A DNA stretch of 52,954 bases from Bacteroidales bacterium. GTDB lineage: Bacteria > Bacteroidota > Bacteroidia > Bacteroidales > UBA932. The position numbers and the translations under genes were made by a program. Below, in pieces: positions 21,871 to 28,010 of the stretch. The DNA lies in the NCBI GenBank assembly GCA_017631435.1, contig JAGBTG010000020.1:1-52954 (forward strand), in the 5' to 3' direction. The stretch's first letter is position 1. Every line of letters begins with the position of its first letter. Under the pieces are notes generated by a model, which was not told the DNA's origin, did no database searches, and saw nothing but the letters and a program-made list of their open reading frames with translations.

Positions 21871-22899
21871 TTACAGAATTGTACACCATCCGTGCTTGTC
21901 CTCAATCTCACCGTACTGGATTCCGGTTAGGGTCTCGTAGAGCTTGCGGCTCTTAGGGCCACACTCCTGACTGTAAGCATATGAGGCAGTAACATTCTCT
22001 GCAGCAAGGGTCTCCTTGTCTTCAACAAGTTTTACAGGAGTAATTACCACAGCAGTACCGCACTGGCCTACCTCCTCAAATGTTGGAAGTTCATCTACCG
22101 GGATATCCCTGCGCTCAACCTCCATACCCAAATCCTCTGCAACCTGCCTCAAAGACTTGTTGGTAATGGAAGGGAGAACTGTTTTTGCACATGGGGTAAC
22201 ATATTTGTTCCCTTTAATGCCAAAGAAGTTTGCAGATGAGAACTCGTCAATGTTCTTGGTTTCAGGGTTGAGGAACAATACATCCTTGTAGCCCTGTTTT
22301 ACAGCAACTCCGGTTGCGTACATAGCACATGCGTAGTTTCCTCCAACCTTGAACGAACCGCTTCCGTTAGGTGCTGCACGGTCATAATCCCTTGCAATAA
22401 CGGTCTTGATAGGATCAAGTACCTTGCCTGCGTATGAACCTACAGGGAGGGTGATTACCATAAAGAGGATACCGTCCTGCTGTGGAACAAGGTTGATTGA
22501 AGGGATTGTAGTGATTAGGATAGGACGGATATACAAGGATGCCCTCAATTCGTAAGGAGGCAAGAAATCCAGGTTCTCCTGAACCGCCTGCTTGCACATT
22601 TTAACGAACAGCTCCTCTGAAGGACAAGGGATGCCAAGGAACCCTGCCGAACTCTGCAATCTCTTTGCGTTCTCATCCGGGCGGAAGATTCTTACCTTAC
22701 CGTCCGCTCCGCGGAAGGCCTTAAGACCTTCAAAGCATGACATTCCGTAATGCAATGATGGCGAGAATACTGTAAGGTTCAAAGTATCTGCACTCTGGCT
22801 CTGGATAGGGCCCCATTTTCCGTCTTTATACAAACAGGTAAGTACTGTATTGGTTTTTGAATATGAGAATGACAAATTTGTCCAGTCTTTCTTTTCCAT
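21871..22899 (-). CDS. ilvE: Branched-chain amino acid aminotransferase
   Basis: PLP-dependent class IV aminotransferase that makes Ile, Leu and Val from their keto acids with glutamate. The 342 residues show HYGMSCFEGLKAFRG near residue 51, RPDENAKRLQ, and GSFKVGGNYACAM with the PLP-binding Lys near residue 184, then EFSSANFFGI and TPVKLV, typical of the longer eukaryote/Bacteroidetes-type IlvE. It is the last gene of the ilvD-B-N-C-E operon, 18 bp after ilvC, and ends just before a strong terminator. Regulation is probably through the leader upstream of ilvD. Confidence 0.95.
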   Translation of the reverse strand: MEKKDWTNLSFSYSKTNTVLTCLYKDGKWGPIQSQSADTLNLTVFSPSLHYGMSCFEGLKAFRGADGKVRIFRPDENAKRLQSSAGFLGIPCPSEELFVKMCKQAVQENLDFLPPYELRASLYIRPILITTIPSINLVPQQDGILFMVITLPVGSYAGKVLDPIKTVIARDYDRAAPNGSGSFKVGGNYACAMYATGVAVKQGYKDVLFLNPETKNIDEFSSANFFGIKGNKYVTPCAKTVLPSITNKSLRQVAEDLGMEVERRDIPVDELPTFEEVGQCGTAVVITPVKLVEDKETLAAENVTASYAYSQECGPKSRKLYETLTGIQYGEIEDKHGWCTIL

Positions 22900-22917
22900 A
22901 GCAATTTCCTTTTAAAA

Positions 22918-23964
22918 TTAATTGTTCTCAGGACGCAAAGACCTTACAGTTGCACCAGCCTGCCACATCTCGCTCTCTCTCATCTCTTTAAGCTCTGCCT
23001 CAAGTTTTACCCTGTAATCAGGCTTGCTGTTTGAATCAATTGAAATCTGGGCCTCGTTACCGCATTTTACCTCATTGTAAAGCTCAGTGAATACAGGTTT
23101 GGTTGCATCACGGAATTTCTTCCACCAGTCAAGTGCACCTCTCTGCGCAGTAGTTGAGCAGTTTGCATACATCCAGTCCATTCCGTTCTCTGCAATAAGC
23201 GGCATAAGGCTTTGTGAAAGCTCCTCAACTGTCTCGTTGAACGCCTCAGAAGGGGTATGTCCGTTCTCCCTCAAAGTCTCATACTGGGCTGCAAACAATC
23301 CCTGAATAGCACCCATCAGTGAGCCGCGCTCTCCGGTAAGGTCTGAATAAACCTCACGTTTGAAAGTGGTCTCAAACAAGTAGCCGCTTCCAATGCCAAC
23401 GCCAAGGGCAATAACCCTGTCATAAGCCTTTCCGGTAGCATCCTGATAAATTGCATAAGAAGAGTTCAATCCCCTGCCCTCAAGGAAAAGTCTCCTCAAG
23501 GATGTACCTGAGCCTTTAGGTGCAACAAGGATAACATCCACATCTGCTGGAGGAACAATGCCTGTACGGTCATTGTAGGTGATGCCAAAGCCGTGTGAGA
23601 AATAAAGGGCCTTGCCTGGAGTAAGGTGTTTCTTTACTGTAGGCCATACAGCAATCTGACCGGCATCTGAAAGAAGGTATTCAATGATTGTTGCCTTCTC
23701 GCATGCCTCCTCAATCTCAAACAAAGTCTCTCCCGGTACCCAGCCGTCGGCAACAGCCTTGTCCCAAGTCTTGGATCCTTTTCTCTGTCCTACAATCACT
23801 TTAATGCCGTTATCTTTAAGGTTCAATGCCTGTCCAGGCCCCTGAACGCCATATCCAATTACTGCTACTGTCTCACCAGACAATACTTCCTGTGCTTTCT
23901 CCAAAGGAAACTCAGCGCGGGTAACTACCTGCTCCTCTACGCCTCCAAAATTCAATTTTGCCAT
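22918..23964 (-). CDS. ilvC: Ketol-acid reductoisomerase
   Basis: IlvC isomerises and reduces acetolactate and acetohydroxybutyrate, the second common step of branched-chain synthesis. The 348-residue class I form has the Rossmann motif VIGYGVQGPGQALNL near residue 35, the cofactor-selecting loop GQRKGSKTW, APKGSGTSLRRLF, and the C-terminal knotted domain with ETTFKREVYSDLTGERGSLMGA carrying metal-binding acidic residues. The loop retains Arg and Ser residues that favour NADPH. It lies 48 bp after ilvN and 18 bp before ilvE. Confidence 0.95.
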   Translation of the reverse strand: MAKLNFGGVEEQVVTRAEFPLEKAQEVLSGETVAVIGYGVQGPGQALNLKDNGIKVIVGQRKGSKTWDKAVADGWVPGETLFEIEEACEKATIIEYLLSDAGQIAVWPTVKKHLTPGKALYFSHGFGITYNDRTGIVPPADVDVILVAPKGSGTSLRRLFLEGRGLNSSYAIYQDATGKAYDRVIALGVGIGSGYLFETTFKREVYSDLTGERGSLMGAIQGLFAAQYETLRENGHTPSEAFNETVEELSQSLMPLIAENGMDWMYANCSTTAQRGALDWWKKFRDATKPVFTELYNEVKCGNEAQISIDSNSKPDYRVKLEAELKEMRESEMWQAGATVRSLRPENN

Positions 23965-24012
23965 ATCTGTGTATTTTTTAAGTTTTTCAAATCTTGTTTA
24001 TATATCTGCCAA

Positions 24013-24249
24013 TCACATTGTGTAATAGGCTCTCTTTATCTCAACTATATTGCTAATCTGGTTTACAAGCCTCTCAATCACATCCTTGCGCTCGCTCAGG
24101 CAGGTAATCCTGTAAGCCCCCTGCTCCGGTGCTGTCCTGTTATACTCAAAGGTCTCAACCTGAATCCTTTTCTGCAAGTACAATGTTGCTATCCTGTTCA
24201 TTACGTCAAGTCTGTCCTTGCCCTCTGCCAATACTGTATATCTTTCCAT
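24013..24249 (-). CDS. ilvN: Acetolactate synthase small (ACT) subunit, short form
   Basis: A 78-residue protein consisting of a single ACT-type domain (MERYTVLAEGKDRLDVMNRIATLYLQ, then an internal strand-helix ending VEIKRAYYTM). ACT subunits stabilise and feedback-regulate the catalytic IlvB subunit. The length matches the E. coli IlvM/IlvN class (roughly 85-95 residues) rather than the 160-190 residue IlvH form, so the C-terminal half found in IlvH is absent. It starts 12 bp after the ilvB stop codon and precedes ilvC by 48 bp. Position and length together make the call secure; sensitivity to valine cannot be judged from sequence. Confidence 0.88.
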   Translation of the reverse strand: MERYTVLAEGKDRLDVMNRIATLYLQKRIQVETFEYNRTAPEQGAYRITCLSERKDVIERLVNQISNIVEIKRAYYTM

Positions 24250-24261
24250 AGTGTTAAAAGT

Positions 24262-25962
24262 CTATTCAAAAATTATGTCATCAAGTGTTTTTCCTGCAGG
24301 AATCATCGGGAAGACATTCTCCTGCTCTGTCATTGCCGCCTCAAGGAAGAAAGGTCCGTCGTGGGCCATCATCATCCCCACAGCTTCCCCAAGTTCCTCC
24401 CTGTTGCTCACCTTGGCATATCTTATGCCGTATGCCGATGCCAGAACTCCAAAATCTGGGTTTGCCAGGTAGGTGAAGGAGTATCTTCTGTCAAAGAAAA
24501 GCTCCTGCCACTGCCTTACCATTCCCAAATATGAGTTATTCAAAAGAACTATCTTAACCGGAATCTTGCTCTGGAGGATTGTTCCCAGCTCCTGAATGTT
24601 CATCTGCAGGCCGCCGTCTCCGGTAAAGAGGACCACATCCTTGTCGGGATTACCAACCTGTGCCCCTATTGCTGCTGGGAGTCCGAATCCCATTGTTCCA
24701 AGGCCTCCGGATGTAACCCAGCATCTGTAGCCGTCCAATTTGGAATATCTTGCCGCAAACATCTGGTTCTGTCCCACATCGGTAACAACTACCTTCTTCT
24801 TGCTGCCGGCCTTGGTAACTGCATCTACCACCTGTGCCATTGTCAATGAACTTGAATTGAGTTGCGGATCCTTCACCATTGTCTGTTCATGATCCCTTTT
24901 ATCTTTATAAAGTCCAAACCACTCATCCCTCTGCCTGAACTCCAGTTTCTGATACAGCCCCTCCAGGAATACCCTTGCATCGCTCTCAACCGCCAGATGG
25001 CACTTTACATTCTTGTCAAACTCCGATACATCAATATCCACATGGATAATCTTTGCTTTAGGGGCGTATCCCTTAACCTCACCTGTAACCCTGTCTGAGA
25101 ACCTCATTCCAATTGCCAGAATCACATCTGCATTCTGGGTCATCACATTAGGCCCCACATTTCCGTGCATTCCCACCATTCCAACATATTCAGGATCTGT
25201 CTGGTCCATGGCCCCCATTCCCATCAGGGTAACCGCTACCGGAATATTTCCCCTGTCTGCACAATCCTGCAAAATCCTGTTTCCTCCCGACAGTATCACT
25301 CCATGTCCTGCAATTATCAGAGGCCTCTTTGCATTGTTGAGGTCATTTGCAGCCTCCTCAATCTTCTCTGCCAAAGTACAGGTAACATCAACCCCTTCAT
25401 GCTCCAGCAATTTCAGCGCAGCCTCCTTGTCATATGAGTAATCCATCATCTCCACCTGGGCATTTCTGGTAAGGCTTATAAGAACCGGCCCCGGTCTGCC
25501 GCTCTGTGCAATATGGAATGCCTGGGCAATTACTGTTGGGATCTCTGCAGCCTTTGAAATCTGATAACTCCATTTGGTAATTGGGATTGTGATTCCAATC
25601 ATATCAGCCTCCTGGAAGAAGTTTGTACCAAGTTTGTCGGCATTTACCTGAGCTGTGATGCATACAAGCGGTGTTGAATCCATCATTGCATCTGCAATTC
25701 CCGTTACAAAATTTGTTGCTCCCGGCCCTGCTGTTGCCATACACACACCAACCTTGCCTGTACTTCTGGAATAACCTTCCGCTGCGTGTACCGCCCCCTG
25801 CTCATGCCTTACAAGAATATGGTTCAACCTGTCTGTATAATCGTACAACCTGTCATAAACCGGCATTATTGTTCCCCCCGGATATCCGAATATTGTATCA
25901 ACTCCCTCATCCAAAAATGCATTCATCAGAGCATCTGCCCCCGTCATTCTTCTCGTTTCCAT
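24262..25962 (-). CDS. ilvB: Acetolactate synthase large (catalytic) subunit
   Basis: A thiamine-diphosphate and FAD enzyme that condenses pyruvate with pyruvate or 2-ketobutyrate, the first committed branched-chain step. The 566 residues contain the catalytic Glu in HEQGAVHAAEGYSR near residue 55, VCMATAGPGATNFVTGI, the FAD-binding middle domain (GMVGMHGNVGPNVMTQNADVI), and the ThDP/Mg motif GDGGLQMNIQELGT through LLNNSYLGMVRQWQ. Length and motifs are complete. It follows ilvD by 15 bp and precedes the small subunit gene by 12 bp, so the subunits are made together. Confidence 0.96.
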   Translation of the reverse strand: METRRMTGADALMNAFLDEGVDTIFGYPGGTIMPVYDRLYDYTDRLNHILVRHEQGAVHAAEGYSRSTGKVGVCMATAGPGATNFVTGIADAMMDSTPLVCITAQVNADKLGTNFFQEADMIGITIPITKWSYQISKAAEIPTVIAQAFHIAQSGRPGPVLISLTRNAQVEMMDYSYDKEAALKLLEHEGVDVTCTLAEKIEEAANDLNNAKRPLIIAGHGVILSGGNRILQDCADRGNIPVAVTLMGMGAMDQTDPEYVGMVGMHGNVGPNVMTQNADVILAIGMRFSDRVTGEVKGYAPKAKIIHVDIDVSEFDKNVKCHLAVESDARVFLEGLYQKLEFRQRDEWFGLYKDKRDHEQTMVKDPQLNSSSLTMAQVVDAVTKAGSKKKVVVTDVGQNQMFAARYSKLDGYRCWVTSGGLGTMGFGLPAAIGAQVGNPDKDVVLFTGDGGLQMNIQELGTILQSKIPVKIVLLNNSYLGMVRQWQELFFDRRYSFTYLANPDFGVLASAYGIRYAKVSNREELGEAVGMMMAHDGPFFLEAAMTEQENVFPMIPAGKTLDDIIFE

Positions 25963-25977: not shown

Positions 25978-27765
25978 TTACTCTATAACTCTTACTCCAC
26001 CTATATCTGCACTTCCTGCCAATGATGCATATGCCTTAAGTGCCTTGCTTACTTTTCTGTCCCTTGCTTTAGGTTTATAACCTGTTCCTGATTCAAGTTT
26101 CTCTTTTCTCTGCAGCAACTCCTCATCTGAAAGTTCCACATTTATACTTCTCTTTGGAATATCAATCACCATTGTATCACCATCCTCCAAAAATGCTATT
26201 GGTCCTCTGCTGGCTGCCTCCGGAGAGATATGTCCAATTGAAAGGCCGCTTGTTCCACCGGAGAACCTTCCGTCGGTGATGAGGGCACAATCTTTATCCA
26301 GCTTCATGCTCTTTAGGAACGAGGTTGGATAAAGCATCTCCTGCATTCCCGGACCTCCCTTAGGTCCCTCATATCTTATCACCACCACATCCCCTTTCTT
26401 CACTTTTCCGCCAAGGATTCCATTTACCGCATCCTCCTGGCTCTCAAACACTACTGCTGTGCCTTTGAACTTCAGGATATTTTCAGCCACACCGGCTGTC
26501 TTTACTATACATCCTTTTGGTGCTATATTTCCGTAAAGTACTGCAAGGCCGCCATCTTTTGAGTATGCGTTTTCAATATTTCTTATACAACCGTTCTCCC
26601 TGTCTGTATCAAGCTCCTTATAAACACTTTCATTCTCCCCCAATTTCACTGTTCTCACTCCACAAGGGGCAGACCTGTAAAGGTTCTCATTATCCGCCTC
26701 AAGTGCTGCCTGCAAACTTGGATAATCTACCCTTGCCACATCAGTCTTCAGTATTCCCCCTTTGGCAAGTTCCCTCATGATTCCCATGATGCCTCCTGCC
26801 CTGTTCACATCCTGAATATGGTAACTGCTGTTTGGCGCAACTTTACAAAGTACCGGAACCTCTTTAGAAAGGCGGTCAATATCCTTCATTGTAAAGTCTA
26901 CACCGGCCTCATGGGCAATTGCAAGAAGATGCAATACTGTATTTGTAGAACCTCCCATTGCAATATCAAGTTTCATTGCATTCTCAAAAGCATCTTTAGT
27001 TGCTATTGATCTTGGGAGAACACTTTCATTATTGTTGAAATAATACTCATTTGCCAATTTCACCACAAGCTCTGCACCTTTTCTGAACAACTCCTTTCTG
27101 TTGGCATGAGTGGCAAGCACTGTACCGTTACCCACCTGTGCCAAACCCAAAGCCTCGGTAAGGCAGTTCATGGAGTTTGCCGTAAACATTCCCGAGCAGC
27201 ATCCGCAAGTAGGGCAACCAAACTCCTCATACTCCTTCAAATCCTCATCAGAAACCTCCGGAGCGGCACCTTTAACCATAATATCAACCAAATCACAATC
27301 CGCACCCTTAACTCTTCCTGCCTCCATTGGTCCTCCCGACACAAATACAGCCGGAATATTCAATCTCATGGCCGCCATAAGCATGCCGGGTGTAATTTTG
27401 TCACAATTTGAAATGCATATCATGGCATCGGCACAATGGGCATTGCACATATATTCAACGCTATCTGCAATAATCTCTCTTGAAGGCAGCGAATAAAGCA
27501 TTCCGTCATGACCCATTGCAATACCGTCATCAATGGCTATTGTATTGAACTCAGCTGCAAAGCAACCTGCCTTTTCTATCTCATTCTTAACAAATTGACC
27601 AATCTCATGAAGGTGTACGTGACCTGGAACAAACTGGGTAAATGAATTCACTACCGCAATCACAGGCTTGCCAAACTGCTCTCTCTTCATACCGTTGGCT
27701 CTCCAGAGTGCCCTTGCACCCGCCATTTTCCTTCCTTCTAAAGTTTTATTGCTTCTGAGTTCCAT
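25978..27765 (-). CDS. ilvD: Dihydroxy-acid dehydratase
   Basis: IlvD dehydrates dihydroxyisovalerate and dihydroxymethylvalerate using an Fe-S cluster. The 595-residue protein has cluster-ligand Cys residues in [13 protein letters not shown] and [19 protein letters not shown], plus [20 protein letters not shown] and [20 protein letters not shown], all diagnostic of the IlvD/Edd family. It is the first structural gene of the operon. Upstream lie an intrinsic terminator (27791-27831) and an Ile-rich leader ORF (27859-27966), which suggests transcription into ilvD depends on attenuation. Confidence 0.96.
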
Positions 27766-27790: not shown

Positions 27791-27831
27791 AAAAAACCTG
27801 CTTAACGGTCAAATCCATTAAGCAGGTTTTT
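27791..27831 (-). terminator. Attenuator terminator in the ilv leader
   Basis: A perfect 14-bp stem (27792-27805 with 27818-27831) closes a 12-nt loop and, on the minus strand, is followed by a T run. It lies between the Ile-rich leader ORF and ilvD, so an uninterrupted transcript would stop before the structural genes. The leader stop codon is 27 nt upstream of the stem, a spacing suited to ribosome-mediated attenuation. Confidence 0.85.
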
Positions 27832-27858
27832 AATTATTACTTAAAGGATTCTACAGCA

Positions 27859-27966
27859 TTATGGAATAATAATGGCACAAAGCATAATAATAGAAATAGA
27901 GTGCAGAATGCTCTCCATCATGCTAATTCGCCCTATTATAATGCCGTTATGCAATTTGTTATTCAT
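27859..27966 (-). CDS. Isoleucine-rich leader peptide of the ilv operon (ilvL-like)
   Basis: A 35-codon ORF with 11 Ile codons. It starts MNNKLHNGIIIGRISMMES and ends SISIIMLCAIIIP before TAA. Leu codons (3) are also present but no Val. It lies in the transcribed leader of ilvDBNCE, directly before a strong intrinsic terminator. In classical attenuation, scarcity of charged tRNA-Ile stalls the ribosome in the Ile runs and prevents the terminator from forming. There is no Shine-Dalgarno sequence, as usual in this phylum. The coding call rests on composition, position and its match to the pathway end product; no homologue was checked. Confidence 0.72.
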   Translation of the reverse strand: MNNKLHNGIIIGRISMMESILHSISIIMLCAIIIP

Positions 27967-28002
27967 AAATGTGTAAAATCTGTGGTTTCAATTACAACGA
28001 AA

Positions 28003-28010
28003 CAAAGCTA
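28003..28010 (-). promoter_or_regulatory. -7 box for the ilv operon leader
   Basis: TAGCTTTG on the minus strand fits TAnnTTTG and lies about 37 bp upstream of the leader-peptide ATG at 27966. A -33 box at normal distance is not evident (the nearest CAAA on the plus strand is about 25 bp away), so this is tentative. Confidence 0.4.

Follow-up and report, generated by a model that had tools for sequence, protein, structure and literature searches.

The window analyzed here, positions 1 to 52,954 of contig JAGBTG010000020.1 of assembly GCA_017631435.1 (Bacteroidales bacterium, GTDB UBA932), carries on its minus strand a short isoleucine-rich ORF and a hairpin directly upstream of ilvD. An earlier note on this DNA interpreted the arrangement as ribosome-mediated attenuation of the ilv operon. 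This raises the question whether such a switch can be recognized from the conservation and the spacing of its parts in related bacteria, and how it would operate.

The leader ORF is located between a TAnnTTTG box, which we take to be the promoter consensus of Bacteroidota, and a hairpin with a U-run whose end lies 25 nt 5' of ilvD (Table 1). Recounting confirmed the 35 codons, the 11 Ile codons and the two Ile triplets (codons 9-11 at 27942-27934 and codons 32-34 at 27873-27865) described before; three codons are Leu and none is Val. The -7 box was found as described as well, and the perfect 14-bp terminator corresponded to 14 contiguous Watson-Crick pairs within a stem of 17 pairs including one G-U (6-nt loop, -23.2 kcal/mol). 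When the 420 nt upstream were shuffled with dinucleotides preserved, an ATG ORF of 15-60 codons with at least 11 Ile arose in 2 of 5000 cases. A Shine-Dalgarno sequence was not seen before the leader ORF, and leaders of Bacteroidales are thought to be read without one. On the opposite strand a mirror ORF (27872-27976, plus strand; MAQSIIIEIECRMLSIMLIRPIIMPLCNLLFINV) is likewise rich in Ile, probably because the leader hairpin is nearly palindromic. The genes follow in the order ilvD-B-N-C-E, with gaps of 12-48 nt in the part after ilvD (21871..25962). Between the terminator and ilvD the motif TATAATTTG is present at 27782-27774 (minus strand). It was kept in three close relatives and nearly so in a fourth, and is possibly a weak second promoter or a part of the ilvD start region.

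Table 1. Location of the leader, its RNA elements and the neighbouring genes in the window
Feature	Position	Strand	Remarks
C69-family peptidase gene	ends 28072	-	upstream neighbour, same strand as leader
Promoter -7 box TAGCTTTG	28010-28003	-	Bacteroidota TAnnTTTG type; 36 nt 5' of leader ATG
Long hairpin enclosing leader ORF	27847..27980	-	candidate "1:2" or anti-antiterminator hairpin
Hairpin base, 5' strand GATTTTACA	27972..27980	-	just before leader start codon; pairs with 27855-27847 in window fold
Leader peptide ORF MNNKLHNGIIIGRISMMESILHSISIIMLCAIIIP	27966..27859	-	35 codons; stop TAA 27861-27859
Antiterminator strand, region 2, GAAUCCUUUAAG / GAATCCTTTAAG	27851-27840	-	7 nt after leader stop
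Intrinsic terminator hairpin and U-run	27791..27831	-	arms 27831-27815 / 27808-27792; U-run to 27791
Region 3, CTTAATGGATTT / CUUAAUGGAUUU	27822-27811	-	part of terminator 5' arm and loop; pairs with region 2
ilvD, dihydroxy-acid dehydratase	25978..27765	-	Pfam PF00920 and PF24877; start 27765; first gene of operon
ilvB-like TPP enzyme	25962-24262	-	label from order, length and Pfam domain
ilvN-like short ORF	24249-24013	-	no Pfam match; label from order and length
ilvC	23964-22918	-	third gene after ilvD
ilvE-like aminotransferase	22899-21871	-	label from order, length and Pfam domain

To compare ilvD upstream regions, the best 80 of 594 contig matches were combined with 49 loci from the own genome and its relatives, and removal of 2 duplicates left 127. 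To count as a leader, an ORF had to start with ATG, contain a 12-codon stretch with 9 or more I/L/V codons and stop 60-280 nt before ilvD. Such a branched-chain-rich ORF was present in 62 of the 127 distinct regions, compared to 0.2 expected from dinucleotide shuffles and 3 on the reverse complement. This criterion misses some leaders that are visible on reading (L015, L032), and the window leader, which scores 7 of 12 and so falls under the cut, was added to the locus set by hand.

Group labels for the following counts were assigned by hand from titles and kinship. At a threshold of at least 8 of 12, leaders were found in 13 of 15 genus members, the exceptions being the window (7) and one region shortened by a contig end, in 6 of 11 loci from other genera of the family, in 16 of 21 from other families of the order and in 35 of 64 contigs labelled Bacteroidota. 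No leader was recorded by the criterion in the remaining 29 of these contigs, 3 of which have short upstream sequence, and none of the 16 contigs labelled as other phyla carried one at 9, or even at 7, of 12. Outside the order, 11 of 29 loci possess an ORF at 8 of 12 or above (e.g. L148, L154, L156, L160, L162); this count is without a composition control, so no claim is made for these loci. The gene ilvD was present in 50 of 118 genomes, the own one included. Twenty same-genus genomes are listed with no match. Since some of these are more than 90% complete, the genus seems to have branched-chain synthesis in a patchy distribution.

Leaders of the closest relatives read MNNNRYMNNIIGRISASGIIQVAISIIIVINVIIIP and similar, other leaders of the genus terminate in VVVVLSVIIIK or VVVLNVIIIQ, and two Bacteroides leaders end in HIIRVVVVASRA and HIIRVVVMESRA. 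Upstream of the leaders, a TAnnTTTG box lies 50-200 nt before the stop codon in 63 of 70 loci, with 9.4 expected from shuffles (70 of the 71 loci of the set were usable, one being too short). The most likely transcription start is therefore 5' of the leader and not downstream of the hairpin, the alternative that the earlier note had named as fatal to its interpretation. Its other refuting outcome, a lack of conservation among relatives, does not appear either: the ORF and the terminator hairpin are both conserved.

In the window, the region 27998-27780 has a folding z-score of -6.98, which none of 200 shuffles matched. Conservation of the terminator is reflected in its base pairs. Of the 14 genus loci whose terminator had been tested, all but L122, which has a differing leader and linker, were aligned (A4, 13 loci). 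In this alignment 8 of 13 terminator pairs had changed on both sides and 94.1% of the cells were paired; 0 of 500 shuffles reached either the number of double changes or the pairing level.

An alternative antiterminator pairing, which the earlier note had suggested looking for without naming one, is present as well. For each locus, the duplex formed by the linker (from stop codon to terminator) with the 5' arm plus loop of the terminator was evaluated against 200 linker shuffles. In the window the duplex between regions 2 and 3 has a single mismatch and an energy of -13.3 kcal/mol (shuffled mean -6.7, p 0.015). The locus set consisted of 71 loci, i.e. 70 at 8 of 12 or more plus the window. The terminator scan was successful in 62 and found none after the leader in 9. 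Among the 62 testable loci the antiterminator reached p <= 0.05 in 45 and was not significant in 17. In several Bacteroides-like loci the antiterminator strand UGAGAAAGG starts with the stop codon itself and has CCUUUCUCA as partner.

Linkers also matched their own terminators. The own arm was better than the median of the arms of other loci in 54 of 62 loci and belonged to the best tenth in 31 of 62. Linkers of the genus paired with a mean of -12.3 with their own arms versus -5.0 with arms of the other group, and the corresponding values for non-genus linkers were -13.2 and -7.1. Within the genus (13 loci) the antiterminator is conserved but shows no covariation above shuffles (84.2% of the cells paired, 76 of 500 as high); the argument rests on the comparison between clades.

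The position of the ribosome relative to the antiterminator was analyzed next to the pairing itself. In line with the usual footprint, the front edge of a ribosome was placed 15 nt downstream of the first P-codon nucleotide. For a ribosome stalled with the last clustered I/L/V codon in its A site, the distance between this edge and the start of the antiterminator is at most 7 nt in all 45 significant loci (median 1 nt). Such a spacing was found in 51 of all 62 loci versus 1192 of 3100 shuffled linkers (38%). The stalled ribosome covers at most 3 nt of the antiterminator in 40 of the 45 loci, and in the window it is 3 nt clear of it. A ribosome whose A site holds the stop codon overlaps the strand by 1 nt or more in 43 of 45 loci (median 10 nt, 3 nt in the window). 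In 38 of the 45 loci the stalled ribosome covers at most 3 nt and the terminating one at least 1 nt. From this tight spacing of control codons and antiterminator the position of a stalled ribosome can be predicted.

Taken together, the conserved leader, promoter box, terminator, antiterminator and spacing strongly support the proposal of the earlier note, and the locus is very probably a ribosome-mediated transcription attenuator before ilvDBNCE, as far as sequence and comparison can tell. Transcription would start a few nt after 28003 (about 27996), and a ribosome would begin the leader peptide without a Shine-Dalgarno sequence. When charged Ile-tRNA is scarce, it would stall on an Ile codon. 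Since its front edge would reach only 27855 on the last Ile, region 2 would stay free to pair with the terminator 5' arm once this is made; no terminator would form and ilvDBNCE would be transcribed. With plentiful Ile, the ribosome would get as far as the stop codon and overlap the antiterminator strand by its initial 3 nt. Once the ribosome is released, the long ORF hairpin could hold the GAAUC of the antiterminator, the terminator would form and RNA polymerase would stop near 27791. Such a mechanism, if correct, requires that these bacteria couple translation to transcription.

The occupancy of the antiterminator was scanned in 12 of the 62 leaders, with a named codon in the P site and the RNA cut before the terminator 3' arm; the values are equilibrium values. 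In the window it was 0.85-0.97 for any P-site codon up to the last Ile, 0.73 with the terminating ribosome (Pro in the P site) and 0.81 in the ribosome-free RNA, for which 0.65-0.98 was obtained across the 12 loci. With a terminating ribosome the six non-genus loci dropped to 0 to 0.19, and the six genus loci gave 0.73, 0.73, 0.00, 0.76, 0.68 and 0.98. In L086 and L092 the antiterminator also dips in mid-leader. According to this model, the terminating ribosome thus masks the strand clearly in the non-genus loci but only weakly in most genus loci. With 0.73 and 0.81 in the window, either the ORF hairpin or timing has to account for the off state. Furthermore, the complete terminator exceeds the antiterminator in stability (-23.2 versus -13.3 kcal/mol in the window), so timing must decide between them, as it does in classical attenuators.

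The long hairpin of the genus, which the earlier note does not mention, encloses the leader ORF. In the five closest sequences (alignment A5, used for the consensus fold) the nine base pairs of the hairpin base are kept throughout, one as U-G or U-A. The base reads GAUUUUACA/UGUAGAAUC (or UGUAAAAUC). Double-sided changes occur in 7 of the 43 consensus pairs. Folded up to region 2, the window reached z -4.5 and the 14 genus loci a mean of -3.8, compared to a mean z of -0.14 in the 33 other loci with a significant antiterminator and -1.7 in the 15 without one. Permutation of synonymous codons significantly weakened the fold in 11 of 14 genus loci (not in L095, L105 and L122) and in 4 of 48 others. 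On this sequence evidence the genus hairpin is conserved beyond the peptide. Its signal depends on folding the entire ORF region or on shuffling codons; in the duplex energy of region 2 alone against the upstream RNA, p <= 0.05 was found in none of the 14 genus loci, and in 5 of 33 and 3 of 15 loci of the two other groups.

Three of the 15 loci without a significant antiterminator, L020, L034 and L050 (Marinifilum/Labilibaculum-type), fold strongly as well (z -3.0 to -4.7). They carry two branched-chain-rich ORFs in series before ilvD, perhaps tandem attenuators.

The leaders of the genus are longer than those of the others (median 37.5 versus 23 codons), and Asn codons make up 0.18 of their first half versus 0.10. 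The hairpin base contains the GAAUC of the antiterminator, so that both structures exclude each other there, and in loci with weak masking by the ribosome the genus hairpin may bring the off state to completion. We tentatively propose a genus leader that is double-coded, a composite picture which as a whole we give somewhat less than an even chance. The lengthened, Asn-richer N-terminal half would partly be the RNA complement of the Ile/Val control codons. These codons would thus lie inside a hairpin closing over the leader start region and the start of the antiterminator, and the ribosome would have to unwind its own sensor codons. Where the terminating ribosome masks weakly, as predicted for most of the genus members scanned, the hairpin would form first in transcription, pause RNA polymerase, confine sensing to the pioneer ribosome and close the switch. 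Other Bacteroidales would possess a simpler switch of two parts: masking would be left to the terminating ribosome, and a leader that is not translated would remain on.

The hairpin downstream of the leader might be only the terminator of the upstream peptidase gene, which ends on the same strand, and the Ile-rich ORF a chance product of AT-rich sequence, as Ile codons are AT-rich themselves. The rarity of such an ORF in shuffled sequence, the promoter boxes between upstream gene and leader and the antiterminator all count against this explanation. Additionally, 60 of the 71 loci were surveyed for upstream genes, and the 49 ORFs of at least 120 codons within 700 nt upstream of the leader fell into 37 groups, 22 of the 49 being on the other strand. 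The terminator therefore belongs with ilvD, and we regard the explanation as next to negligible. A structured RNA that senses a ligand, a tRNA or a protein directly, with an untranslated ORF, would be consistent with the strong genus hairpin conserved beyond the peptide and with the ability of the naked RNA to form the antiterminator. However, no Rfam family was matched at gathering score, the I/L/V-rich frames persist while the RNA differs between clades, and the 33 other loci with a significant antiterminator are without such a fold, which makes direct sensing highly improbable. A second promoter between terminator and ilvD, giving most of the expression and leaving little weight to the attenuator, could be seen in the conserved TATAATTTG. 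This motif lacks the TAnnTTTG spacing and the conservation of the attenuator argues for its use, so a dominant second promoter is very unlikely, too.

Within the attenuation reading itself it has to be asked which amino acid is sensed. The operon serves all three branched-chain amino acids, and runs of Ile, Val and Leu occur mixed in the leaders of genus-mates and of other Bacteroidales; in several of the latter Val or Leu comes last. The switch might thus answer all three about equally, or a general slowing of translation. The window leader with its 11 Ile and no Val, as well as the last control run, which is III in 10 of 14 genus leaders examined, speak against this, and we consider it a real but less likely version of the attenuation reading. 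With this last III run, Ile is the codon nearest the switch in the genus. The previous claim that the absence of Val codons implies control mainly by Ile is weak, since genus-mates carry Val runs at the same place; the lack of Val in the window leader is a lineage detail. Attenuation that would respond mainly to Ile is the preferred reading.

The same genome contains a further candidate. Before hisG, at 2266-2192 on the minus strand of locus L130, a His-rich leader MRNVTIHIHHHHALNTVVRWAYGL with a TATATTTG box is followed by a terminator and by a 13-bp antiterminator pairing (-18.7) that was equalled in none of 500 base shuffles. Judged by these elements it is a histidine attenuator, so the mechanism would not be confined to ilv. 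The homoserine dehydrogenase gene, considered for a further attenuator, closely follows another gene, and no leader was visible on reading before the HMGL-like gene, which is preceded by a small ORF that we take to be ribosomal protein S21. The chorismate-binding family was not found in the own genome (88% complete).

Control of branched-chain synthesis in Bacteroidales is little described in the searchable literature. The present loci provide a concrete sequence-level model of amino acid sensing in this order, and many unannotated leader peptides are predicted.

Leader-peptide attenuation is a classical principle. The attenuators of enterobacterial ilvGMEDA (ilvL), trp and his consist of a leader with codons for the end product, a terminator and a mutually exclusive antiterminator, and the Bacteroidales element shares all of these. 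The genus hairpin is a candidate for the place of the 1:2 hairpin, and here too a terminating ribosome is predicted to reach region 2, in the window by 3 nt. In contrast, the window has ilvD as first gene, a TAnnTTTG box and no Shine-Dalgarno sequence seen before the leader. A further difference concerns trp, since untranslated trp leaders terminate whereas naked Bacteroidales leader RNA is predicted to form the antiterminator. The enterobacterial ilvL/ilvG layout, in which ilvG is the first structural gene, as proposed in the earlier note thus holds as an analogy but not literally, since here ilvD comes first and the window had no match to any Rfam family at gathering score, T-box, riboswitch and other cis-elements included.

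Outside Proteobacteria, a branched-chain attenuator with three hairpins is described for Corynebacterium ilvBNC in the available part of PMC11857589; it differs in phylum and genes, and the likeness is one of description only. Portions of PMC2965389 state that by 2010, to the knowledge of its authors, demonstrated leader peptide systems were limited to Proteobacteria and Actinobacteria, to which Firmicutes were added. In the phylum of the window, strong clues for leader-peptide attenuation before amino acid operons were given for Flavobacterium psychrophilum (PMC9723704); the main text, as far as available, names no ilv, and the supplement may list an ilv leader. Excerpts of PMC7366714 report sORFs of Bacteroides thetaiotaomicron reminiscent of leader peptides. 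Bacteroid-trp RNA (RF01692), a Bacteroidetes motif that in the section available of PMC2864571 is regarded as probably cis-regulatory and not a switch, had no match in the window at gathering score. Among the open-licence literature matches listed, none described a leader attenuator before ilvD for Bacteroidales. Although the element is found again in many members of the order, descriptions of it there seem to be scarce. In comparison with these systems, what seems new here is the ilvD leader element together with its genus-specific hairpin elaboration, both built on the known principle of attenuation.
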